Shown: positions 3,063 through 28,300 of the stretch, in pieces
Layout: the number at the start of each line of letters is the position of its first letter
Numbering within the stretch: the first letter of the stretch is position 1
From: Cochliopodium minus
Taxonomy: Eukaryota > Discosea > Himatismenida > Cochliopodiidae
Length of the DNA: 31,047 bases
Assembly (NCBI GenBank): GCA_024220525.1
Contig: JAMYWO010000024.1
Coordinates: 153,910-184,956, forward strand
Direction of reading: 5' to 3'
The notes under the pieces: model-generated
The model's input: only the letters and a program-made list of their open reading frames with translations
Told to the model about the DNA's origin: nothing
Databases searched by the model: none
Translations under genes and position numbers: made by a program

Positions 3063-5994
3063 ATGGAAAGAAATCATGCAAATGATTCAAGGTATAATCA
3101 AGATTATCACCATTCAGATAGATATAACAGAAATGATAATTACTTAAATCACGATAAATACAACAAAAATTATATTCCATATCAAAATCATCCTCCAAGA
3201 AGGAAATATTCAAATGAAATTAATAGCCATGAAGAAAGAAGATATTTCAAAGATAATCACCACAGATATCAACCTACTTCTCCGGGATATTTTGACAAAG
3301 AAGAAAAGAATCATTCAAACAGTCCAACAAAAAGAAAAAGAATGTTAACCGTTAGAAATTTTTCCTTTTTATACTTTGATATTCAACAAATATCTAATTT
3401 TTCCGTTATTCATTATATTCTCTTTATTAAATACATTTGAACGAACTATCTTTTTTATAGCCAAATGCAAAAGAAACAAAAAGGAGAACACAACATTTAC
3501 CTCCTCATCAAGAAAATAGAAGAGATGATCTTAGAAGAGAGGAGGGAAGGAGAGAGGAAGGGAGGGAAATAAGAAGAGAGGAAGACCATAGGAGAGAAGA
3601 TCTTAGAAGAGAAGAGGGCAGAAACAGAAGAGAGGAGGGGAGGAGGGAGGAGGGGAGGAGAGAAGAGGGGAGGAGGGAGGAGGGGAGGAGAGAGGAGGGG
3701 AGGAGGGAGGAGGGGAGGAGAGAAGTGAAAAGGGATGAAGAGGGACATTTGTTGGGGAGGAAAGGAGAAGAATTGGGAAACAGATACGTGATAGAAAAAG
3801 AAATAGGGAAGGGAACTTTTGGTTCTGTTTTTGATTGTTTCGATAAAAAACTTAAAAAGAACGTGGCTATTAAAGTGATCAGAAATGTTGAAAAATACAG
3901 AGATGCCGCCAAAATTGAAATTGAAATTTTAGAAAAAATTCACAAATCCAACATCCCAGCTTATTCGAGGTAAATCAAAAAAAAAAAATTAGACCCTCCT
4001 TATTCTTATTTCTATTTTAACTCTTTTATTTATCAATTAATATTTAATTTAATTAATTTAAATTTAAATTAAATCATTTTATATTAATTTATTTAAATAA
4101 TTTAAATATTTAATTTATTAAATAATTGATAAATAATGAATAATTTTTAAATAATTTGATTAAAAAAAAGGGGATGCATAAAAATGATAGAGTGGTTTGA
4201 CTATGAGGGACACATAAGCATGTGCTTTGAAAAATACGGATCTTCTCTTTATGATTTTTTAAAAGATAATGAATACCGTGGTTTTTCTATTTATTTTTGC
4301 CGAAAATTCGCTTTCCAGATCATCTGCACCATTTCCTGTAAAAAACAAACTAAAACATAAACTAAAACTTAAAAATAAACACAAATATAAATTAAAACAT
4401 AAACTAAAACATAAATATATAAATTAAATATAAACATATAAATTAAAACATAAAAAAAACTTAAATTAAAACATAAACTTATATATAAACACAGATATAA
4501 TCTAAAACTTAAACATAAACACAAATATAAATTAAAACATAAAAAAAAACTTAAATTAAAACATATAAATTAAAACATAAACTAAAACATAAATTAAAAC
4601 ATAAACTAAAACATAAATTAAAACATAAACTTCTTTCCTTTTTTTATTTAATTTGTTATGACATTTGCTTTATTACAATAACTACTTTGTTATAATATTT
4701 ATTTTTTATTTAATTTATTTTAATATTTTCTTTATTTTAAAAAATTGATATTTAACAATTTAAAATGAAAGTCAATTTATATTTATTCATATTCATTTAT
4801 TTATTATTTTATTATTTTAAAAATTTATTTATTCATTTATATTTATTTAATAATAAATTAATATTTATATTTTATTATTTATTATTTCATTAATAAACTA
4901 ATATTTATTTATTCATTTATATTTATATAATAAAAATTGATATTATTTATTAAATGAATTGATATTTATATTTTATTTAATAACACTTATTTATAATTTA
5001 ATAAATTGATATTTATATTTTATTATAATTAAATGAATTAATATTTATATTATATTATAATTAAATGACAGTTATGCACAAGATAAATTTGATTCACACA
5101 GATTTGAAGCCGGAAAACATTCTGCTGGTGTCAGAAAATTACAAGGAAGACGGGAATGGGAAAAAGATACCAAAAAGCAGTGAAATAAAAGTAATAGATT
5201 TTGGTTCTGCAACATTTGAAGAAGAACATCACACAAGAATTGTTTCAACAAGACATTATCGTTCTCCTGAAGTCATTTTAAATAATGGTTGGAGTTTTCC
5301 TGCTGACATTTGGAGTATTGGTTGCATTTTAGTTGAACTTTTCACTGGTGATGCCCTTTTTCAAACTCATGACAACAATGAACATCTCGCCAGTATTCCC
5401 CTATTTCTTTTTTTTTTTGTCAAATAATCATTTTAAAATCTTAATTAATTTACATTTAATTTAAATTTAAATCTTCTTTTTGTTATCTTCATTTTAAATC
5501 TTATTTAAATCACCATATTTAGTTTTCTTAAACTAATTTTATTACATCTTATTCTTCTTGTTTTTTAATTTTAAATTCTATTTAAATTCTATTTAACTTT
5601 TTATTTTTTATTTTTTATTTTTTTTACAATTAAAATAGTGATGGAACATTATTTGGGAAGAATGCCAGTATCAATGATTAAAAAAGGAGGAGAGAAAAGT
5701 AAGAAATATTACGAGAATAACAAACTTAAATGGCCACAAATAGCGAAATCAGAAAAATCAATAAAAATAGTGGGGTCTCTTCCCAAAATTGAAAAATTAA
5801 TTCCCGATAAAGAATTTCTTCATTTGATTACCAGAATGTTAGAATATGATCCAAACAAAAGAATAAGTGCAGATGATGCAATTCTTCATCCTTTCTTTAA
5901 AATTCTTCACAACGACAAATTTTTTGTTGATATGATTCCTCCTTCTTTTCCTCTCCAACACAACGAAAATGATGACTCTGATTCTTCAAAATAA
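3063..5994 (+). CDS. LAMMER/CLK-family dual-specificity protein kinase
   Basis: Five exons (3063-3350, 3461-3969, 4171-4337, 5072-5392, 5639-5994) join in phase to 546 codons. The N-terminal ~215 residues are hydrophilic: His/Asn/Tyr-rich, then a long Arg-Glu-Glu-Gly repeat where metazoan CLKs have an RS domain. The kinase domain follows: [11 protein letters not shown] (glycine loop), VAIKVIR (ATP-binding Lys), [24 protein letters not shown] (catalytic loop), [14 protein letters not shown] (DFG plus the CLK-type acidic turn), [12 protein letters not shown] and [14 protein letters not shown], the LAMMER signature. Such kinases phosphorylate SR splicing factors in the nucleus. Upstream frame is open to 3024 after a TAG, but no extra exon is needed. 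The 734-base third intron is unusually long and repeat-filled. Confidence 0.93.
3537..3725 (+). repeat. Purine-only repeat encoding Arg-Glu-Glu-Gly units
   Basis: Nearly every base is A or G on the plus strand, built on 15-base units (GAGGAGGGGAGGAGG and variants) that encode REEGR-type pentapeptides inside the kinase N-terminus. The tract is in frame in the exon at 3461-3969. Long homopurine mirror repeats can form triplex DNA, and they vary in length by slippage. Confidence 0.85.
4344..4635 (+). repeat. AAAACATAAACT-type degenerate minisatellite in kinase intron
   Basis: Roughly 12-base units of the kind AAAACATAAACT and AAAACATAAATT repeat with many variants across about 290 bases of the third kinase intron. 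From about 4780 to 5060 the same intron continues with ATATTTATATTTTATT-type repeats. No coding signal is present. Confidence 0.75.
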
Positions 5995-7332: not shown

Positions 7333-10053
7333 ATGAGGGAAAATTCGAAAAAACATTCAATAGAAAAGAATGATAATAAAGCATATAAAAAAAGAACAGT
7401 TGGAAAATCTGAATTGAATGAATTAAAAGATATCCTTAGAACAATTTTAGACAAGAAAATCAAATTATTGACAAATGATTTATTATTGGAAGCCCTTGAG
7501 CATACAAAAGATGTTCAATCAGCATCTGAAGAAATTTTAAAAATCTTTTTTGATAATCAAGATGAATTTTTTAAAAAAGGGAAAAATGAGAAAATTAAAA
7601 GTGATAACAAAAAAGGATTTATTTTACAATCCGATAATGAAGAAGAATACAAAAAATATTTAAAAAAACCAATAAGTGAGGGGTTTTATCTCAATTTCCT
7701 TCCTTCATTAAGTTTAAAGGTGAATTTTTTCAATAAAAAAAGTAATAATAAGATTAAATACTTAAACATGGATAGGATAATGAGGGATGTATTTCTTTAA
7801 AATCATTATTTGATGGAAATGAGGAAATAGGGAAGATGGTAATTTCGGGATTTGAAATTGATTTGGATTGGTTCCTCCTCCAACTCCCCCTTTTTGATGA
7901 TGATCATCATCCCATAAAACAAAAATCTAATTTAAAGATATTTGTATCTGGAAATCTTCTTCCCTCTTCATCTTTTTATCTCTCCAATCAATCGTACATA
8001 TCGAACAGCTCAACAAAGGGGAATGGAAATAATAATGGAGGGAATACAAAGAAAATCAAATTTGTTGGAGAAGAACAATCTTTTTCAAACTATTTCGAAG
8101 AGAAAAGAAGAGAAAAGAAAGGGATACACAAAGGAGATCAAGAGGAAGGGAGAGGAGTATATTGGGTTCAAAATAAAAGAGAAAAAGAAATGGGAAAGTA
8201 TGGTACTCTTCATGGTAAGCTCCTCCTTTTCTCTTCCACTCCCAATTATCACAATTATAATATCGTTGACAATAATGATAACAAAAATAACAATAATGTC
8301 AATTATAATAATCATAAAGTTAACAATAATAATAATATTGAAAATAATAACAATAATAAAAATAATAATAATAATAACAATTATAATAATGATAAAAACA
8401 ATAGTAAAAATGATAGTAACAATAAGAATGAAAAAGTTAATTATAACCAAAATAATGATAATTCAAAAAAGAATGAAGTGGGGAGAGAAGGGGAAAAATT
8501 GAGAGTAGTGATATCCACAGCTAATTTCACTTCTTCTGATTTTCTCACTAAAACTTGTGCTCTTTGGTTTTTCTTTATTTATTTATTTATTATTTTCATT
8601 ATTAAACATTTTTATAAAGGGTGAATTAGTGACGAGTATTCCTGGAAAATATTCAAAACATCTCTTTTCCAATATTAACGACAATAACAATAATAATGAT
8701 AACAATAATAATAACAATGATAACAATAACAATGATGACAATTATAATGATAACAAAAAAAATACTAAAAACAATATTAAAGATAATAATTTCCATCATT
8801 TTAATGAAAATAATGAAAATAATGTTAAAAAAGGAGAAAAGGTAAAAAAATATGGTAAAATGAGAATAAATCACCTTGTCAACCTTTTCAACAATAGTAA
8901 TGAGAGTGAGAGTAATAGTAATGAGAGTAAGAGTAGCAATAACAGTAAGAGTAATAGTGATAATGAAAAGGAGGAGAGGGAAGAGGGGAGAGAAGAGAAG
9001 AGGGAGGATATAATAGTGAATGTATCATCAATAGGAACTTTTTCAGAACATTGGTTAAAAAGTGTTGATGACAGTTTTAGAGGTTTATTTTTTTTATTCA
9101 TTATATTGTTATTTTTATTTTTATATTTATTTTTATTTTTATATTTATTTTTATTTTTATTCATTTTATATTTTTTATTCTTATTTATTTTTAATTTATT
9201 TTTATTTATTTTTATTTTTTTAAAATGTTAAAGGAAAGTGTTATGAATTTTCAATAGCTAATTTAAAAAAGAAAGGAAAAGAAGGAGAAAAGGAGAATAA
9301 AAAAGAAGGAAAGATGCACATTGTTTTCCCTTCTTCTCTTTTTGTTCTCCACTCTTTTACTCATTCTCTTTACTCCTCCTCTATAAATAAGAATGATAAT
9401 AACAGTAAAGGTAATAATAAGGATAACAAAAAGAAAAAGAATAACTACGGATTATTTTTGAAAAGTAATAATTTTTCTCCATTTTTGAAAACATGTTTAA
9501 GACAATACTCTCCTTTTTCTTTTAGACATGTAAACTTTTCCTTTTTTGACTTTAATACTTGTTCATTAATAAATAGTATTGGAGGGTCATTTTTTTTTAT
9601 TATTATTTTATTTTAAATTTTTTTTTCTTTGAAAAGAATTTTCTTCCACATTTAAAAATATACATGTCATTGAATAGAATTATAAAAGGAGGAGAAGGGG
9701 AGAAAGAAGGAGAAGAGTATGAAAATAAGGAAATAGAAGGGAGGAGATATGTGGTAGTAAATTGGATTTTGTTGACATCATGTAATTTGTCTATCCCCGC
9801 ACAAGGTTCTTCAACAGATAAATTGTTTGAAGTTCTTTCTTTTGAAATTGGAATATTTTTTGCTTCCAAAAAAGGAGAGACAGTGTATCTTTTAAATGAA
9901 CCAAATTCTTTCTCTTCTTCCCCTTCTCTTTTTTATCATATGGGTGTCAAATATGTTGTTTTACCTGTCCCTTTTCTTTTTCAAAATTTAAAAAGTTTTG
10001 AACCAAACTCTCCTCCTTATTTTTTTAATCTTCCCTTAAAAAATAACAAATAA
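7333..10053 (+). CDS. TDP1: Tyrosyl-DNA phosphodiesterase 1
   Basis: Five exons are inferred: 7333-7719, 7776 to about 8566, 8620-9082, 9234-9529 and 9637-10053, for about 783 residues. TDP1 hydrolyses 3' tyrosyl-DNA links left by trapped topoisomerase I, using two HKN motifs. Motif 1 is GTLHGKLLLF with the downstream Asn in LRVVISTANFTSS. Motif 2 is LPHLKIYM with Asn in LLTSCNLS; the usual Trp after it is replaced by Gln. Other family landmarks are VTSIPGKY, NVSSIGTFSEHWL, MHIVFPS, FEIGIFF and LPVPFLF. The N-terminus has a weakly UBA/CUE-like helical stretch (ALEHTKDVQSASEEILKIFF). Asn-rich insertions interrupt the domain at about 8250-8490 and 8680-8830. The apparent stop at 7798 lies in an alternative frame and is removed by the 7720-7775 intron. 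The 8567-8619 junction has no canonical in-phase donor and lacks about 60 residues found in human TDP1. Confidence 0.88.
8250..8490 (+). repeat. AAT/AAC trinucleotide-rich tract coding poly-Asn
   Basis: Imperfect AAT and AAC codon runs inside TDP1 exon 2 encode an Asn/Lys-rich insertion of about 75 residues. It lies between the first HxK motif and the strand carrying its partner Asn. A second, shorter tract of the same type lies at 8680-8830 in exon 3. Confidence 0.8.
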
Positions 10054-10169: not shown

Positions 10170-13100
10170 TTAATCGTTTGAAAGATAAAAGTAGTTTCCT
10201 TGCTCCTTCTGTTCTCTATCATTGACAGAATCAAACTTATTGATACGAGGTCTCCAATTATCCTTATCTCTTCTAAAAGTGACTTTGAGGGTTTTAAGGA
10301 AAGAGTTCATACCTATCAAAAATTTAAAAATGATTTTAAAAAAAAATTAAAAATTAAAAAATAAATCAAAAAAAAAAGAATTGTTTTTTTTACCACTCAA
10401 AAGGGATTCCGGACTACGAGCATTACACTTAACGGAAGGTTCACCATCAAAAACGATAACTCTGTCAGCCAAATAGGTGGCCATGATGAAATCGTGTTCT
10501 ACAATGAAAGCAGTCTTTTTGGAGTGCATGATAAATCTTTTAATCACTTTGGATGCATTGATACGTTGTTCAGAATCCTTTTTTAAAAAAGATTAATAAA
10601 TTAAAAAAAAAAAAATTAAATTAAAATTAAAATTAAAATTAATTAAATTAAAATTAAAATTTAAAAAAATAATAATTTTTTTTTTTACCAAATAAGCAGA
10701 AGGTTCATCAATGAGATAAATGTCAGCAGGTTTACCCAAAGCCAAAACCAAAGCGACACGTTGCAACTCTCCACCAGAAAGATTTTTTACAGTCAAATCG
10801 AGAAGAGGCTCAATGATGAGGGGTTTGACGACATCAGAAGAAAACTGAGAGTGGGTCCATGCATTTTTAATTTTGGTGTTTAACAACTCTTTCACTGTTC
10901 CACTGAATTTTGGTGCGATTGTTTGTGGTTTGTATGACACGTTCAATGTTGGCACTTGGTATCCCTCGTCTGGTGTTATCTTTCCTGTTTTTTTTTTTTT
11001 TTTTTTAAAAAGAAATATATCAAATTAAAAAAATTAAAAAAATCAAAAGAGAAATAATGAAGAAAATTTAGAAATGAAAATAAATGTTCCTAAAAAAAAA
11101 TTTATAAAAAAAAAATTAATAAAACATAGACAAATCTTTTAATAAAAATTATTAAGAAATCAGGGTTGAAATTCAAAAAAAAAATTTAAATATTAAAATT
11201 ATCTCACTTTTAAAATTTTGAAAAAAAAAATATTTCAAAAAAATTATTTTTAATTTATTTAAAAATTTTGAAAAAATTTGTAATAAAAAAAAAGAAAAAA
11301 GGAAAATTACCAGCAAGCATTTGAATGAAGGTAGTTTTTCCTGTACCGTTTTCACCCAACATGACGATGATTTCAGAAGTGTTGAAGGAACCTTTGTCGA
11401 CAGAAAGTTGGAAAGTTTCTCTCGTCTTCTTCATTGAAGGATAATTAAAACAGTTTTCACGTTTACTTTCTTCCAAATGATCTGTCACCTTTTTTTAATT
11501 AAAGAATGTTTTTAAAAATAAAATAAAAAATAAAAAATGAACAATTAAATAATAAATAACAAAATAAAATAAATAATAAATAACAAAAACTAAAATAAAA
11601 ATAATAAATTAAAAATAAAAATAACAAAAAAAGTTATATTAAAATAAAATATTATAAATAAATAAAAAATTAAAATTAACAAAAAAGTAATAGAAATAAA
11701 TTTAAAATAAATTTAAAATAAATTTATAAATATAAAATATTAATAAATAAAATAAAACAAAAAAAAAATAATAGCAATAAATTTAAAATAAAATTTTAAA
11801 TAAAAAATGATAAATATAAAATAAAAAGGGTTTCTACCCTGAAAGAAAGGGAAGTTTCTCTGAAGCGGAGATTTTCGGTAGGAACTTTTCCTTCCAAGAA
11901 AATGTTGATGCCTTCTCTGACACCAAAAGGTAAAGTGACAACACCGTAAGCACCAGGCAAACCATACAAAACGCAAACAAAGTCACTGAGGTAATCCAAA
12001 ATGGACAAGTCGTGTTCCACACAAATCACAAACTTTTGAGGAGTTAAAAGACTTCTTATCGTTCTTGCTGCTTTCAATCTTTGTGAAATGTCCAAATAAC
12101 TACTTGGTTCGTCAAACATGTACACTTCTGCTTCTTGGACACAACTTAATTTTTTTTTAACAAAAAAAAAAGTTAATGTGTTTAATAATAATAAAAAATT
12201 AATACACTAATATGTAATAATAAAAAATTAATACACCAATGGAAAATTCAATTAAATTAAATAATGGTGTAAAAATAAATTAAAAATAAATAAGCAAAAT
12301 TAATTGAAAATAATGAATGAATTAATAAATTTTAAAAAAAGAACATTAAATTAAACAATAAATATAACAAAAGAAATTGTTTAATAAATAAATAAACAAG
12401 AAATTAAATAAATCACAAATAAAAAATAAATGGATTGTTCAAAAAATAATCAAAAAAAAAAGACTTTAAAATGAACAATAATGAAATTAAAAAATTAAAA
12501 AAGATTAAAGAAATTAAGAAATTAAAAATAAAAAAGATTAAATAAATAAAGGGAAAAGAGTACACAGTACAAATAGCAAAACGTTGCAATTCACCACCAG
12601 AAAGTTCTTCGACATTTCTCTCCAACAACTTTAAGAGATCCAAGGATTCATAAAAAGTTTGTTTCATCTTTTTATCATCTCTTTTTTCTATGATCTTTCC
12701 GATTTGCCCTTTCACTGCTTTAGGAATGGCATCGACGTACTGGGGTTTGATGACTGCTTTCACTTCGTCTTGGAGCACCTTGGTGAAATAGTTTTGCAAT
12801 TCACTTCCTCTGAAGTAGGTCACTACCTCTTCCCAGTCTGGTGGTGACTACAATTTTTTAAAAAAATTTGAATGATGTAAGAAAAAGATTTAAGAAAATT
12901 ATTCAAAAAAAAAAAAGATTTTAAATAATAAAGAGATGAGATTAAAATTTGTTTTTAGTTAATTATGATCGATAATTGGATCAACATATACAAATGATAA
13001 TTTGGATCATTGATAATTATATGGGTATTTGAAAAGTTGAGATATAAAAATTGATCCAAATTATATGGCGCACATTAAATTCTCACAAAAAAATTTGATT

Positions 13101-14037
13101 CTTTTGTGAGAAATAAGTATGGCAATTTAGAGATGTTCAAAAGTTTACAACAGTTTAAATTTAGTAAGCTAATAATTAATATCCGCTCACAAAGTTGTAA
13201 ATTTTGGACATGTCTAATGGCAATTGTAATTTGTTTCAAATATAAAAGATATTATATTGTGAGATCCAAGATTATCATTATTATTGATCCATTTTTATAA
13301 ATTTTTTTTTTGATTAATTTTTATACATAAGCAAATTGTGTATTATATATAATCAAGAAATAAAGAGTTTTGTAAATTGGATTTAGGATAATTAGAAACT
13401 ACAAATAGAAAATTTTACACTAAAATTTCCCAAATTTGGTTTCAATTTGAGAGCCAAGATTTTGAGTGCAGTGGATTTTCCTTGAAAGAAAAGTTAAGTC
13501 TTATTTTTTTTTGATTTAATTTACATTATATGCTTACCAATACCATTGGTTCCTACCAATCCTAAGACTTCACCAGGTCTTGGAGTTGGCAATCTGTGTA
13601 ATTTAAATCCATTTTGCCCATATCTGTGGGTGGTCTCTTTCTCGAGAGATTTTGGAAGATTGATGATTTGAATAGCATCAAGAGGACATTTCTTTACGCA
13701 AATACCACAACCAATACATAATTCTTCAGATATAACTGCAATTTTTGATGTTTTTTTCACTTCAATACATAATTTTCCTGCAAATCAAATAATATAAAAT
13801 GGGTTTCAAATATTTAAATTTATAAAATAAATAATTAGGAAAATCATTAAATATATTTTTTTATTCTCTTTTCTTCATATGAATTTATCCATATATATAA
13901 TTAATATAATTACCCAATTTAACCACAGGACAGTTTCTTTTGCAATCCAAATTACATTTTTTTGGTTTACAACGATCTTCAGCTACAATAGCAATTCTTG
14001 TTAATTTTTCATTTTTATCTTTCTTTTTGCTTGACAT
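10170..14037 (-). CDS. ABCE1: ABCE1 / Rli1 ribosome-recycling ATPase
   Basis: Nine exons (14037-13914, 13777-13538, 13480-13419, 12847-12564, 12144-11838, 11488-11311, 10984-10689, 10577-10394, 10312-10170) join in phase to 605 residues, the normal family length. The N-terminus carries both 4Fe-4S clusters (CKPKKC...CKRNCP and [12 protein letters not shown]). Nucleotide-binding domain 1 has [18 protein letters not shown] and [12 protein letters not shown]. Domain 2 has [18 protein letters not shown] and [12 protein letters not shown]. The hinge/C-terminal [13 protein letters not shown] is also present. ABCE1 splits post-termination 80S ribosomes in the cytosol. Every catalytic element is intact. 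One intron (12848-13418) is much longer than the others. The gene is convergent with TDP1 and in tandem behind the HTTM gene. Confidence 0.98.
12848..13418 (-). other. Long ABCE1 intron with a possible dispersed repeat
   Basis: This 571-base intron between AGT|GTAAAA and TTGTAG|TCACCA is bounded by exons whose phases match. Unlike its neighbours it is not plain A/T filler. It contains three ordered blocks (ATGATCGAT, TACAAATGATAAT, GATCCAAATT) that recur in the same order in the Crinkler-type gene intron at 21176-21269, suggesting a shared short mobile or dispersed sequence. Confidence 0.45.
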
Positions 14038-20153: not shown

Positions 20154-23100
20154 ATGGATAAAAAACTTCTTGACTCTTTACTTGAAAAAAATGGAATGGA
20201 AAATATTAAAGACACAATCGAAAATGTTTTAGGTGTTGAAAAAATAGAAGATTTTTTGAAATTGAGTGAAAAAGATATAAAGAATCCAAAAATTCGTGTT
20301 GTCGATCAAGTAAAATTAAACAGATTGATATCAAGTCTTAAATATAAAGATATAATAGAGAAAGGAATACATACTGAAGTGGTTGAATTGTGCAAAAGTA
20401 TAGAAAAAATAAATGAAGATGATATGAAGAAATATAATGTAACATTCATTGATGATAAATACAAAATAGAAGATTTTTTGCAATTGAGTGAAAATGATAA
20501 AAATAATCCAAAAATTCGTGTTGAATCAAATCTTAAATATAAAGATATAATAGAGAAAGGAATTCATACTGAAGTGGTTGAATTTTTCAAAAGTATAGAA
20601 AAAATGGATAAATATGATAAGAAGAAATATATTGTAGCATTTATTGATAATAAATACATCACAAAGGAAGATATAAAAAAGATAAATAAAGAAGATTTGG
20701 AAAAAATGGGAATAGTAGGGAATCACATAAAATTAATAATTGAATCAAAATTGGTAAAAATTTTTTATAATTAATTTTTTTCTTCAAAAAATTCTTTGAA
20801 TACAAATTTTCCTCATTGAAATATTAAATTAAATTATCAATGCTTTTAACAATACCAACAGCAAGGAAGCCATATTGTTTCCCTTTTAGAAGAGGGGAGA
20901 TTTGAAGCTCTTAGAATTATGATGGAAAAACAACCTTGGCTCAAAGAAAAAGAAATCCTTCAAATCAAGAAAGATGCAAGAAAACAGATAAGTCTCTCTC
21001 GAAACTTCGGAAACTGGGGCTTCGAAGGGACAACCCAACTTCTTTTAGAGTTTTTGAGAGGTATTTTCAGAATAGATAGTAAAGAATCTATCATTACCAT
21101 CGTAGGAGGATCAGGAAGTGGGAAGGTAAATTTAATAAATAAATATTTTATCGTTCAAAAAATTTGTCAGCAAAAAATGATCGATATAAATCGACAATAA
21201 TCAATAAATACAAATGATAATATGAAAATTTGATTTCATATGTTAAGATGATAAAAATGATCCAAATTTTAGGAAAATGTTTATTTTGTTTATTAAAAAA
21301 AAAGTCTTTCTCTATTGATACAATTTGCAAAGGATTGCTTGAAGAAAATTTCAATGAGATATTGATTAAAAATCTCTCAGCTAAGGAAGATTTCACACAT
21401 ACTCTTCAAATGTACGAAAAATACAAATCTTTCATTTTTCCAATTGCGATTACTTTAAATATGTGGTCTTCATATGAAAAAATATATATCAAAAATAAAG
21501 ACAATGTACTCACAGAGGCTGAGCTCATAGACAACGTTCATCAATTGGTTGGAATTAGGATCTTGTATCAGTTGTAAAAAAAATTATTTAAAACAAATTA
21601 ATTTTTCGAAATTATTTTAATTGAAAATTTTTATAGGTTTTACGATTCACCAAATGCCTACGGTGATTTCCAAAGACTATTCACCAATTTCAAGCTCTCA
21701 TTACAGTTTGTTTTCAAATTCACCGAGTATTACTTGAGAAGAAAGATAGATAAAAAACAAATTATATACATAGCATTGATTATCGATGATCACAAGTTGT
21801 TTGATAAACCAGAATTTCTCAGGAAAACAGTGAAAAATGAAGTCATTAATTTCAATTTGAACAGTAGTACTTCCAAAATTAGATTTGCTTTTTCTGCTCA
21901 CTTGCCCAAAGATTATTCATACGATACAGCAATCTTATTGCCCTGTCAAACAGAATCATTTCCTCTTAAAACTGCCCAAATGATTTTGAAGGAGTTTTGG
22001 GATTTGAGAGATGCAAATAGAAGGCTCATTCTTTCAGTTTATAAACACAAAAGAGGATTGGAATATCTTTATTCTTTTTTTAATAGTCACAAAGAGTCAA
22101 GTGAAAAAACGACTCATCTTATCACTGAATTTTCTCATGGAGGAATCAACGAAAAGAGTTACTATCAAAAAGGATTGGATCATCTTTTTAATTCTTTAAA
22201 GGTATATAAACATTCATCTTCCAATCTTTTTTTTTAATTTGTTTAATAATTTAAAAATCATCTTTTAATGCATTTTTAATTTTATTTTTTAAATATAATC
22301 TAATTTTAAATGTTTCTTTTTTATTTTTTAAAAGGTTTACCTTTCAGGCGTTACCTTCGAATTCGTTGAGGCTTGTTTAGGGAGAAAAGTACTTGTTGAT
22401 GAAAGTTTTGTTGTGAAATCAGGTAGAGTAGATATTTCCCTCCCGAGCGATTACGTTTCCCGTGGATTTTTTGTTAATAACAGCCTTACAACAGATAAAC
22501 CATTTTATCCTGATTCCACTGTGTAAAATTTTTTTTTGTGTATTTTATTTCAAATTATATTTTTCAATAACAAAATAAATAATATAAAGTTTTTACAATT
22601 TAATTTATTTTATTTCAAATTTAATTTTTCAAAAAAATAATATTGTAGTGCTTGGCTTTATACATACAGCAAAATGAATGAAAACTCTGATCTTGAACAT
22701 GAGAAAACCTTTTCAGATTGCATCAAACAAATATTGAGTTCTACATATGATGCAAAAAGTAACGAGATCTTTGTAATAAACGTTGTCTTTTTGAAATTGT
22801 ATGGACTCCAAAAAAGAGGTGTAGTAAAAATAAGCTTGTTTGAGCTCTTCGGAGAGTCTTTGAGATATAACAATACTTTACCAAACAAGTCTGTCAAATT
22901 TGACACAATTGATCCCCGTAATACATTTATTCTTCTCCAAAAAAATAATTTCAAGATTGTTTCTCAAAATTACCAAATGAACAATTTTGTTAACAATGTC
23001 GAGCTCTTTTCAATTGGTTCACTTACAAGCTTTGAGGAGGGAAATAAGGGATTTGACCAATTCTATTCTCTTTTGGTTGAAATTGACGGGGAGGTGGATT

Positions 23101-23831
23101 GTCTCGATATCTTCTTGGAAGCTAAAAGGGAAATAAAAGATTTGAATTTGGACACCGTTTCAGCAAAGGCTCTTTTAATCACACAACAGTTTGAGTCACT
23201 CTATCTTCATAGAAAAGAAACTAAATTCAAAAAAATACTTTTGTGGTCAACTAAGAATGATCTCAGTTACGAGAGAGTTACAAAAGCTTCCAAAAATATC
23301 AATAACATCCACGACAATAATTTGCCTCATGGTCATTTTTTTATTGAGAATTACAACAGAGCTTTCGGAAAAACTTTAACCACATTCGTGATTGATGGAG
23401 AATCAAACAAAAAGATAAAAATGAAACAAAAAGAGACTGTTGAATCAAAAAAACTTCAACCATTGAATCTAAGTAAACGTATTGAAGAGATGAATGTTAC
23501 TGAATTGAACAAAAAATTGGGTATAAATAATTTAAAAAAAGGATCTTTAAAAAAAGATAAGATAAACATGATTAATGGAGCTCTGGAGCAACAGAATGAA
23601 ATAGAAAATAAAACCAAAAATAATGAGAATAATCCCACTCCGGTATTGAAAAAACCTCAAACATCGGTTCAAAATGAAACCAAAAATAATGAGAATATTC
23701 CCTCTAACAAAAGAAAAACATCAAACCAACCTTCAAATAATCAAACTAATAAAATAATAAAAAAAGAAGAAAAGGAATTTACGAAACCACAGATGACAAC
23801 AATCAAAAAAAAAAAAAAAGAAAAAAAATAA
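20154..23831 (+). CDS. SAM-like / P-loop NTPase / nuclease-like protein of the Crinkler-RHS type
   Basis: Six exons (20154-20753, 20862-21125, 21305-21570, 21637-22201, 22335-22522, 22649-23831) join in phase to 1021 residues. Residues 1-200 are repeated SAM-like segments ending KINKEDLEKMGIVGNHIK. Next is a P-loop ATPase with Walker A VGGSGSGKS (about 280-289, split by an intron after the Lys) and Walker B IYIALIIDDHKLF (D427-D428). Residues about 640-890 contain VDCLDIFLEAK (D778/D781, E785, K787), fitting a PD-(D/E)XK nuclease core. A SAP-like helix pair (RIEEMNVTELNKKLGI, about 905-940) and a Lys-rich tail with likely nuclear signals finish the protein. NTPase plus REase-like nuclease is the architecture of Crinkler-RHS effectors, known from oomycetes, fungi and free-living protists. 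Family assignment rests on motif order and is an inference; DNA cleavage and nuclear location are untested. Confidence 0.72.
20235..20645 (+). repeat. Recent internal duplication in SAM-like header
   Basis: Two in-frame copies, about 20240-20460 and 20462-20645, share long near-identical runs, for example AAATATAAAGATATAATAGA and CATACTGAAGTGGTTGAATT. Both encode KIEDFL.LSE then NPKIRV, then LKYKDIIEKGIHTEVVE. The first copy has about 36 extra bases coding VDQVKLNRLISS that the second lacks. The high base-level identity points to a recent event. Confidence 0.85.
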
Positions 23832-25302: not shown

Positions 25303-28300
25303 TCATTTGCAATTTCCACAAAAGATTTCATTCTTTTTGACGAAAACATCATCTTCCAAAGAAGATCCACAGCCAGAACAAGTGAAACAATCAGGATGAT
25401 ACAAAAGATCATTGACCTGTTCGAGATCCCCCTCGATCACCTTCTTACATCTCGTACAAATCTCCTCTTCCTCTTCAATCTCCTTCACATCCTTTTTAGT
25501 TTCAACGATTTCTATAGTATTTTTGTTAGTATTAGTAACAGTATTAGTAGTATTTGTATTGGTTGTAGTTGTGGTGTTTAAGGAGGTGTTGGATCTGTTT
25601 TTTTCTTTGATGTTGCAGGGAGCACAGAGGACTTTGTTTTGAAAGGTGAAGAACTTGATTTCGGCAAGATTTTTGTTACAGATTTGGCAGTTGAAGCATT
25701 CGTCGTGGTAGTCTCTTCCCAAAGCAGAGATGGAGTCTTCTGTAATCTCTTTTTTGCAACCGAAACACTCCACTACCTCTTCTTCGTAAACAAAATCCTC
25801 TTCTTTTTTGGGTGATGGAACTTTTTCTTCTTTAGTTGTTTGAGTATCTACAAAAAAATTAAAATTAATTTAAAAAAATAAAAAATAATTAAATATTTAA
25901 AAAAATTAAAAATATAAAATAAAATAAAATTAAATAGAAATAAAAATAATACCTAATTTTGGTGTTTCAGGTTGCTTTATTATTCCTTGTTTGTTGTCAA
26001 GAGGACAGCTTTTACAGAACAAGAGGGAATTGGAGAGGAGGTAGGAGTCCTCATCGAGATCTTTCTTGCAGACATTGCATTTGAAACAGGAAACGTGGAA
26101 ATCAAAGTCTTCTCCTATTTGAATGAGATCTTCGCATCCTATTTCATCACTGCACACCGAACAAAAATGTGTTGGAACACAATCCTCGCAATCTAAAGTG
26201 AAAAAAAAAATTAAATATCAACAAAAAAATTAATTATTAATATAATAACAAAGAAACTGAAATAATTTTCAAATAAAAATAAAATAAAAATAAAAATTTA
26301 ACTTTAAAACAATAAATAAAAAATAAGAAAATAATTTTCAAATAAAAATAAAAATAAAAATAAAAAAATAAGTATATTAAATCTCTGAAAAAAAAAATAA
26401 ATCTCTTTGAAAAATAAATAATTTCAAATAAAAATAAAAAAATAAGTATATTAAATTGGATCAACAATAAATTGAATTAACAAATAATAAATTTTTAAAA
26501 GAAAAAATACATACAAGGTAAACCATTTTCTTCAATGAAACCTTCTTGCAACTTTTGAGAACTCTTACAAACAGTACAAACGAAACAAAGAGGATGAAAC
26601 TTGTTCTCAGCAAAAGTGACAAAAGAAGAAGTGATGCCCTTCTTGCATGCTTCACATAACACCTTGTTTACTTTCTCGTCGCAAGAATGGCAGATGGGTT
26701 GGTTGTTGTGGATCACAAAGTGGTCGGAGAGGAGGTCCCCACATTCTCCGCAGCGGAAGCAAGAAGAATGGTACATTTTCATTTCTTCGTTCACTTCTAT
26801 TTCCACAAACTCTTCTTCTCCTATCTCTCCTGTTTTTTTTATTTTTAATTTTTTAATTATTTTTAATTTTTTAATTATTTTTTTTGAAATATTATTTGAA
26901 ATGTTTTTTATAAGTTAATTTTTTTTAAAATATTTATTTAAAATATTTTATTTATTTTTTTACGAAATATTTTTATTTGATTTTTTTTTAAATATTTTTT
27001 TTTATAAGTTGATTTCAGTTTTTTTGTTTAAATATTTGATTTTTTTTGGGCAGAGTTTTAAAATTTTTTTATTTTATAAAAGTAATTTTTAATTTATTTT
27101 TTAAATTTAAATATTTTTTTTTTATTTAATTTTTGTTTTTTTTTACCATCACAAACACAACATTTTTCACCATCAAAAAAGTGAACACACTCAGAACAGA
27201 TGTAGAGGGAGGGTTCCTGAGGGTTTTTGAGGAAACCCTTTTCGTTTCTCAAAACTTTTTCGCATTTGCTGCACGTGAAACAATCGAAATGATAAAATTT
27301 GCTGTCTATTTGCAAAAACTCTTTCTCCGCAATATCTTTTTTACAACTGAAACATTGATCCTAAAATTAAAAATTAAAGATCAATATTAATTTTTTTTAA
27401 TCAAACTTTTTTTTTTTTATTTTGTTATTATTTTTTTAATTAAAATTAATTTTAATCAAAAATTTTTTTTTAATATTAATCAAAATTTTATTTTATAGTT
27501 ATTTTTTTGTTTGATTTTTAAAAGAAAAATTTGTTAGTTCAAATATATAATCAAATTTCTTTAAACAATTTATTTTCATTTTTCAATATTTTTTATTTTA
27601 TTTTATAATTTCATTTTTTTAATAATTTTTTTTCATTTTTCCATTGTTGATTATTTTTTGAAATTTGAATTATGTTTTTTTATTCGAATTTTTTTTTTTT
27701 TTTTAATGTTATTGTTGAATATTTTTTTAAAATTTTAAAAATTTTATATTTTTTTAAAAAAAAAAAAGATGTACAGTGTTTCTCTTGTTAAAACAACGAA
27801 CACAATAGAAAAAGCCATCAATAGGAACCAAACCCTCCTTGATTTTAATTTCCAACTTGCACTCAACACACAACAAACAACGAGAATGATAAAACTCGTT
27901 TTCTACAAAAGCGATTTCTTTACGTTTTATTTTCCCCACAAACTTGTCGTCACAAACAGTGCATTTTTTTTCTGGTTTTTTTTCCAAGAAAACATTTTTC
28001 GAGAAAAAATCATCGAAAAAAGATTCTATGTCGCTGTTCTCACTTTCGCTGTCACTGTCACTACTGTACAAAGAAAATAATTTTTTAGAAATACAAAAAA
28101 AAAAATAATAAATTGAAATCAAACTAAATTTTTGTTTTATGTTTTAATAAAAAAAAAATTAAATTGAAATTAAAAAATGTCAAATAAAAATGTCAATTCA
28201 AAATCATTTTAAAAAAAAAATACAAAAAAAAAATACAAAAAATGTTATTTAAAAAAAAGAAAAAGAAAAAAAAAAACTAAAAATGATAATATTTGAAATA

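Follow-up and report, generated by a model that had tools for sequence, protein, structure and literature searches.

A probable Crinkler-RHS-like gene with a SAM header, whose paralogues carry different headers at one phase-0 intron

Does a six-exon gene that places SAM-type repeats in front of a P-loop NTPase and a nuclease-like domain belong with the Crinkler-RHS-type (CR) proteins, and if so, how did it come by its header? Zhang et al. 2016 is reportedly the defining work on CR proteins as a class that joins an NTPase to an REase, and to our knowledge the origin of new headers in this class has mostly been inferred from domain lists. In the parts of the published accounts available here, a division of labour is proposed for Crinklers, with a header, an NTPase as regulator and an REase as toxin; signal peptides are described as rare among Crinkler-type proteins, which are present in free-living eukaryotes too (PMC5289972, PMC6131194, PMC11064341). 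The window analysed here is a stretch of 31,047 nucleotides with a GC content of 24.9%, corresponding to positions 153910-184956 of contig C24 (C and a number label contigs of the same assembly of 44.65 Mb and 598 contigs). The neighbours of the gene resemble ordinary host genes: a protein kinase (3461-3973, +), a tyrosyl-DNA phosphodiesterase (7776-10053, +), by eye an ABCE1-like ATPase (10347-13784, -) and a LIM protein (25303-25869, -).

GT-AG splicing of the + strand yields several open models, one of which keeps GSGSGKS, ends exon 3 at 21570 and encodes 1021 residues followed by a stop. This gene occupies 20154-23831 with six exons and five GT-AG introns (Table 1). A preliminary description of the locus had proposed a gene of this size and exon number, and this gene is real; the spliced model is open, and four of its five introns match those of paralogues. 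At the stop-triplet frequency of the window, the open frame of exon 6 (394 codons) has a chance probability of about 1e-12. The last residues of the protein are uncertain because of a long A run near 23806-23820.

Table 1. Features of the gene, in window coordinates, with the evidence for each.
Feature	Position	Strand	Evidence
Exon 1, header of some three SAM-type repeats	20154..20753	+	SAM_1 match, SAM profile versus PDB, relatives in genome
Third SAM repeat (Pfam match)	residues 152-195, about 20607-20738	+	SAM_1
Intron 1, header/core junction, phase 0	20754..20861	+	Position and phase identical in C70, C6 and C50, where headers differ
Exon 2, core start to P-loop GGSGSGK (21105-21125)	20862..21125	+	Core 32-35% identical to three paralogues
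Exon 3, P-loop S, then ITLN strand	21305..21570 (or 21573)	+	P-loop intron between GK and S in 4/4 genes
Exon 4, second half of NTPase; IALIIDD (Walker B-like, 21770-21790); RDANR and KHKR motifs	21637..22201	+	Conserved alignment columns; profile match to second NTPase family
Exon 5, FEFVEACLGRKV segment between NTPase and nuclease-like core	22335..22522	+	Fused to exon 4 in paralogues (intron 4 absent)
Exon 6, from nuclease-like core through SAP-like helical pair and polybasic tail to stop	22649..23831	+	Long open frame; paralogues conserve the nuclease part
E667 (EIFV), candidate motif I glutamate	22764..22766	+	Invariant in 4/4
D764 (GFD), candidate catalytic aspartate	23055..23057	+	D in 3/4; N in C50
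E785-A-K787, candidate ExK motif	23118..23126	+	E and K invariant in 4/4
SAP-like helical pair (putative)	23478..23585	+	Visual inspection; C70 has a similar segment; nothing in Pfam at E<=1

The SAM-like repeats that had been noticed in the header are borne out by profile comparisons. Pfam's SAM_1 (curated cut-off 23 bits) matches the exon 1 frame at 34.0 bits (E 3.8e-8) and the entire spliced protein at 24.5 bits (E 3.5e-5). Solved SAM domains in the PDB are matched at E 1.1e-7 by a profile of seven SAM pieces, of which this exon supplied three and other loci four. SAM domains are common in this genome, where 65 of 92 scored candidates match at E<=0.001, and therefore SAM alone is not diagnostic. 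When the genome was searched with the third repeat, 14 of the 18 scored candidates were matches, two of them the gene itself; the best others lie on C40 (E 2e-13), C176 (7e-12) and C164 (9e-8), in exons 44-49% identical at the amino acid level, and the remainder reach 9e-4 or weaker. C40 and C176 carry NTPase and nuclease-like cores of other types than that of the window, and at C176 the repeat precedes a different NTPase gene (49% identity in amino acids, 71% in DNA over 180 bases). A DNA search of the genome with most of exon 1 matched nothing beyond the gene itself, because of which we regard the header as shared in the form of a diverged relative and not of a recent copy.

Behind the header, the VGGSGSGKS, IALIIDD and LEAK motifs are all present as the preliminary description had them; in the protein, GGSGSGKS falls at residues 282-289, AITLN at 336-340 and IALIIDD at 422-428. 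Searching the genome with the core gave 19 matches out of 19 scored, six of which are the window gene, and identified cores of the window type on C70, C6 and C50 (35, 35 and 32% identical, respectively). All four genes have GGSGSGKS or GGLGTGKS together with a DD or DE strand, and P-loop, acidic Walker B-like strand and ExK motif are conserved throughout the three paralogues. As judged from exon lengths, the four genes share introns 1, 2, 3 and 5 in both position and phase (0, 0, 2 and 2), and intron 4 is absent from C70, C6 and C50, where the coding sequence is continuous. Of the catalytic residues proposed previously, E785 and K787 hold in every gene, whereas D778 is replaced by F, Y and Y, and D781 by S, S and S, in C70, C6 and C50. 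An E/D/ExK pattern is conserved, in which D764 and E667 suit a PD-(D/E)XK arrangement better than D778/D781 as catalytic candidates.

What does this core resemble outside its own genome? For the window protein and for pieces of C70, Pfam lists nothing at E<=1 from nuclease, Crinkler, RHS or SAP families, and the SAP-like tail described earlier is not upheld, with no SAP family at that threshold for either exon 6 or the C70 tail. Pfam, NCBIfam and PADLOC return weak matches only for the core, mostly at the P-loop. No relative was found by a sequence search of the PDB with the core, nor by protein searches with the core singly and as a four-row alignment (0 matches among 7997 scored candidates each), and none of the matches to the core pattern in bacterial or archaeal contigs (62) or viral contigs (262) was confirmed. 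Pfam's Crinkler profile PF20147, a Ubl header, has 0 matches in the genome and likewise 0 in 14 control genomes. Trypanosome RHS proteins are a multigene family of P-loop NTPases with truncated copies, and their profile (RHSP, PF07999) matches nothing in the genome and nothing in the window protein at E<=1; the control gave no match either. Unlike CR proteins, the window core is without a relative found outside its genome, and therefore membership in their family rests on architecture and motifs. Single-sequence AlphaFold models, at a pLDDT of 38.8 for exon 6 and 35.6 for exon 1, are too poor for a reading of the fold.

Within the genome, the NTPase part does find a counterpart. In hhalign, the window-type NTPase (four rows) aligns with the NTPases of C7, C40, C41 and C310 over 236 columns at a probability of 86% and E 5e-6, and of 200 column-shuffled decoys not one scored as high. 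Once the P-loop is excised, 168 columns align with a score of 23.8 (probability 3%, E 0.013), which one of 200 decoys reaches. A comparison in which the C7/C40/C41/C310 side had three rows rather than four aligned the P-loop alone. The two NTPase families would thus appear to be related, through a similarity that we regard as real but weak. Alignments of the window type are shorter with two other P-loop families, the C176 type (44 columns, E 0.0038) and a dynamin (39 columns, E 0.043). The nuclease profile, compared with other local nuclease-like domains, does not rise above its decoys, 13 of 200 scoring as high.

A census of paralogues with other headers, which the preliminary description had suggested, did find relatives of the core with differing headers in the same genome. 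In C24, C70, C6 and C50, the four genes in which the junction phase was modelled, a separate header exon joins the core at a phase-0 intron. This header is of the SAM type in C24 and C50, and of an unrelated type of 80-81 residues in C70 and C6. That of C50 scores slightly under the SAM_1 cut-off (21.5 bits, E 3.1e-4), and its 5' end is incomplete, since the exon holds no in-frame ATG and one unread base; that of C70 and C6 has no Pfam match better than E 0.008. Sister cores carry different headers at the same intron, and headers therefore look exchangeable between toxin-like cores.

BLASTN comparison among 12 loci locates these changes. The cores of C6 and C50 are 87% identical in DNA and their headers are unrelated, with the switch falling within intron 1: homology begins upstream of the core exon, by 92 bases in C50 and by 73 bases in C6. 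The header region of C6 is in turn 92-97% identical to C298, C262, C40 and C70, and the headers of C298 and C40 agree at 99.4% over 179 bases. Neither C262 nor C40 has a core of the window type: downstream of the header, C262 has a kinase-like ORF (Pkinase below its cut-off at E 1.5e-3), and C40 has an NTPase and nuclease-like core of another kind. No more than residues 2-61 of 80 are matched in the C40 copy, and contig C298 stops some 1 kb beyond its header. Furthermore, a header on C38, followed by just a piece of the nuclease part, matches that of C50 at 86% over 181 bases, a piece of the C40-type SAM exon (97.6% over 85 bases) lies immediately upstream of the C6 header, and C7 and C262 have some 230-250 bases after the C6-type header in common at 88-90%, with differing cores. 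Such similarities probably reflect a reticulate history whose breakpoints lie in the junction intron. A mobile element within that intron was considered and is not supported, as the 232-base piece of C7 and C262 is full-length in those two alone and the other 22 of 24 matches measure 41-48 bases. Elsewhere in the genome, 22 places carry such a short piece of C7:281869-282100 with 88-93% identity, and the 39-base core of the piece is absent from the window at up to 3 mismatches.

The header of about 80 residues was found in six of six scored matches (C70, C6, C298, C262, C40 and C7), and the cores downstream of it are of several kinds; its C7 copy is only 33% identical. A ubiquitin- or PB1-like character was suspected by eye alone, has no Pfam support and is not claimed as its fold; its best match in the PDB, LIC10831 (E 0.0019), presumably a leucine-rich-repeat protein, looks spurious. 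Cores of the C7 type gave 22 matches from 29 scored in 15 contigs, several of them weak, and those of the C176 type nine matches from 15 scored in five contigs. A protein search with the C176-type core returned three relatives among 7354 scored candidates (E 6e-83, 1e-65 and 5e-34), and C176 and two of these three share the motif G(R/K/V)(V/I/F)DFY...KKW..EF, which we take to resemble Crinkler REases; Pfam names no nuclease there.

We hold it to be rather probable that the window gene is a member of a Crinkler-RHS-like family, with an exchangeable header, a P-loop NTPase, an REase-like nuclease core and a basic tail, and that it acts accordingly. The CR-type reading of the preliminary description is partly supported, by the architecture, the exchangeable headers and the profile alignment of the NTPase with a second NTPase family of the genome; no Crinkler, RHS or nuclease profile matched. 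Like CR proteins, as far as the accounts at hand describe them, the window protein has an N-terminal header followed by a P-loop NTPase and a candidate REase-like nuclease, and its headers vary (PMC5289972, PMC6131194, PMC11064341). Unlike the Phytophthora Crinklers, which in those same parts have a Ubl header, the window gene has SAM repeats for a header, and exchange occurs here at an intron whereas there it is placed at the HVLVVVP coding motif. Its most likely role would be that of an NTP-controlled, SAM-assembled DNA nuclease against invading DNA. The SAM repeats would oligomerise the protein, binding and hydrolysis of NTP would license the nuclease, and the basic tail would retain the protein in the nucleus or on DNA. 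The nuclease may then act by cutting DNA, and the most plausible setting is a conflict with transposons, viruses or other cells. New combinations of header and core would arise by recombination in the junction intron, which would shift a whole header exon and leave the reading frame undisturbed.

The header types of this family also stand upstream of other NTPase and kinase-like cores. On a broader proposition we are evenly divided: that the genome holds a modular repertoire of conflict proteins, in which header exons act as mobile cassettes and recombination in one phase-0 junction intron joins SAM and other headers in frame to unrelated NTPase-nuclease, kinase-like and other cores. If true, the arrangement would parallel, by way of an intron, the cassette exchange seen in bacterial polymorphic toxins, and its core family would be known here alone.

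A different reading, in our view unlikely, is that the protein is an immune switch inside the cell, comparable to STAND/NLR or SAMD9 proteins, in which SAM would oligomerise, the NTPase would switch and the nuclease would kill or shut down the infected cell, with the likeness to Crinklers due to convergence or shared ancestry. STAND/NLR-like and SAMD9-family proteins differ from the window protein in domain order and content. As described in the accessible part of one source, they do likewise combine SAM with a P-loop NTPase and an effector domain (PMC5445408). The order SAM, NTPase, nuclease-like would suit such a switch, and so would the lack of a signal-peptide-like stretch: among the 11-mers of residues 1-60, the most hydrophobic averages only 0.77 on the Kyte-Doolittle scale, which, as a measure of hydropathy and not a signal-peptide predictor, is in line with the absent signal peptide noted before. 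The same holds for C176, where the same SAM repeat goes with matches to AAA_14 (E 5.6e-7) and, below its cut-off, NACHT (E 2.1e-5), and for the company of SAM or weakly SAM-like exons with ankyrin-looking repeats at C108 and a dynamin-like GTPase at C299. However, the window protein has no C-terminal repeat domain, its NTPase, unlike those of STAND/NLR and SAMD9 proteins, is without a STAND profile match (no STAND, NACHT, NB-ARC or repeat family at E<=1 among the Pfam profiles), and exchange of headers on an NTPase and REase-like core is the Crinkler-RHS pattern.

Could the copies instead be mainly selfish or decaying, as RHS-like by-products of recombination with no present host function? The models of C6 and C50 end at in-frame stops, kept unaltered, before the tail, and C50 moreover has GFN for GFD; detached header or tail pieces occur at C164, C38 and C325; and dN/dS, estimated by NG86 across the cores, is 0.64 for C6/C50 (666 codons). 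The window gene and C70, however, are open through all modelled exons, the latter to its stop, and dN/dS is 0.45 for C6/C70 (660 codons), 0.45 for C50/C70 (716) and 0.43 for C24/C70 (783; dS about 1.6). We judge this reading to be quite improbable, though values of 0.43-0.64 are moderate constraint only, which counts against the explanation that we prefer. That header and core are two adjacent genes, for which the header exon of C164 without a core might speak (no + strand ORF of at least 100 residues further downstream within the stretch read), is very hard to credit against a 108-base GT-AG phase-0 intron at an identical position in four genes with different headers.

Returning to the Crinkler-RHS-like reading, C6 and C50 make up a natural pair, with nearly the same core, two headers and a switch inside one intron. 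This pair, and the recent header copies near other cores, therefore make exon exchange directly testable. A literature search of titles and abstract openings, with few subscription papers, turned up neither SAM headers nor header exchange through introns for Crinkler-RHS proteins, which is weak evidence of absence. If the organism is free-living, these genes bear on whether Crinkler-type nucleases serve in internal defence, as opposed to being secreted effectors only.

Several further loci place similar modules side by side. At C176, a phase-0 join (AAG/gtaaat ... aaag/CCC) is possible by eye. On C193, a SAM match (60225-60407) is followed, about 2 kb downstream on that strand, by a weak match to the nuclease part of the C7 type (57811-58206, E 0.0023). 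P-loop ORFs follow a SAM exon at C121 (E 6.2e-7) and a weak SAM exon at C41 (E 0.0019), the latter locus starting with a stretch that looks like CAP-Gly by eye; the P-loops of the C41 and C121 ORFs read GASGIGKTR and NSPGFGKST. The SAM exon of C108 (E 4.3e-7) comes after its ankyrin-looking repeats, which were recognised by eye, and at C299:40000-42634 the weakly SAM-like exon (E 0.0067) comes before the dynamin-like GTPase ORF (Dynamin_N E 6.5e-13). The kinase-like ORF of C262, of 715 residues with HGDIRLRN and DFDYSG, is preceded by the shared header and by two exons of weak SAM likeness (best E 0.002-0.014). Finally, C325:37000-40164 holds a detached copy of the polybasic tail of the window gene, 87% identical over 255 bases and without a core.
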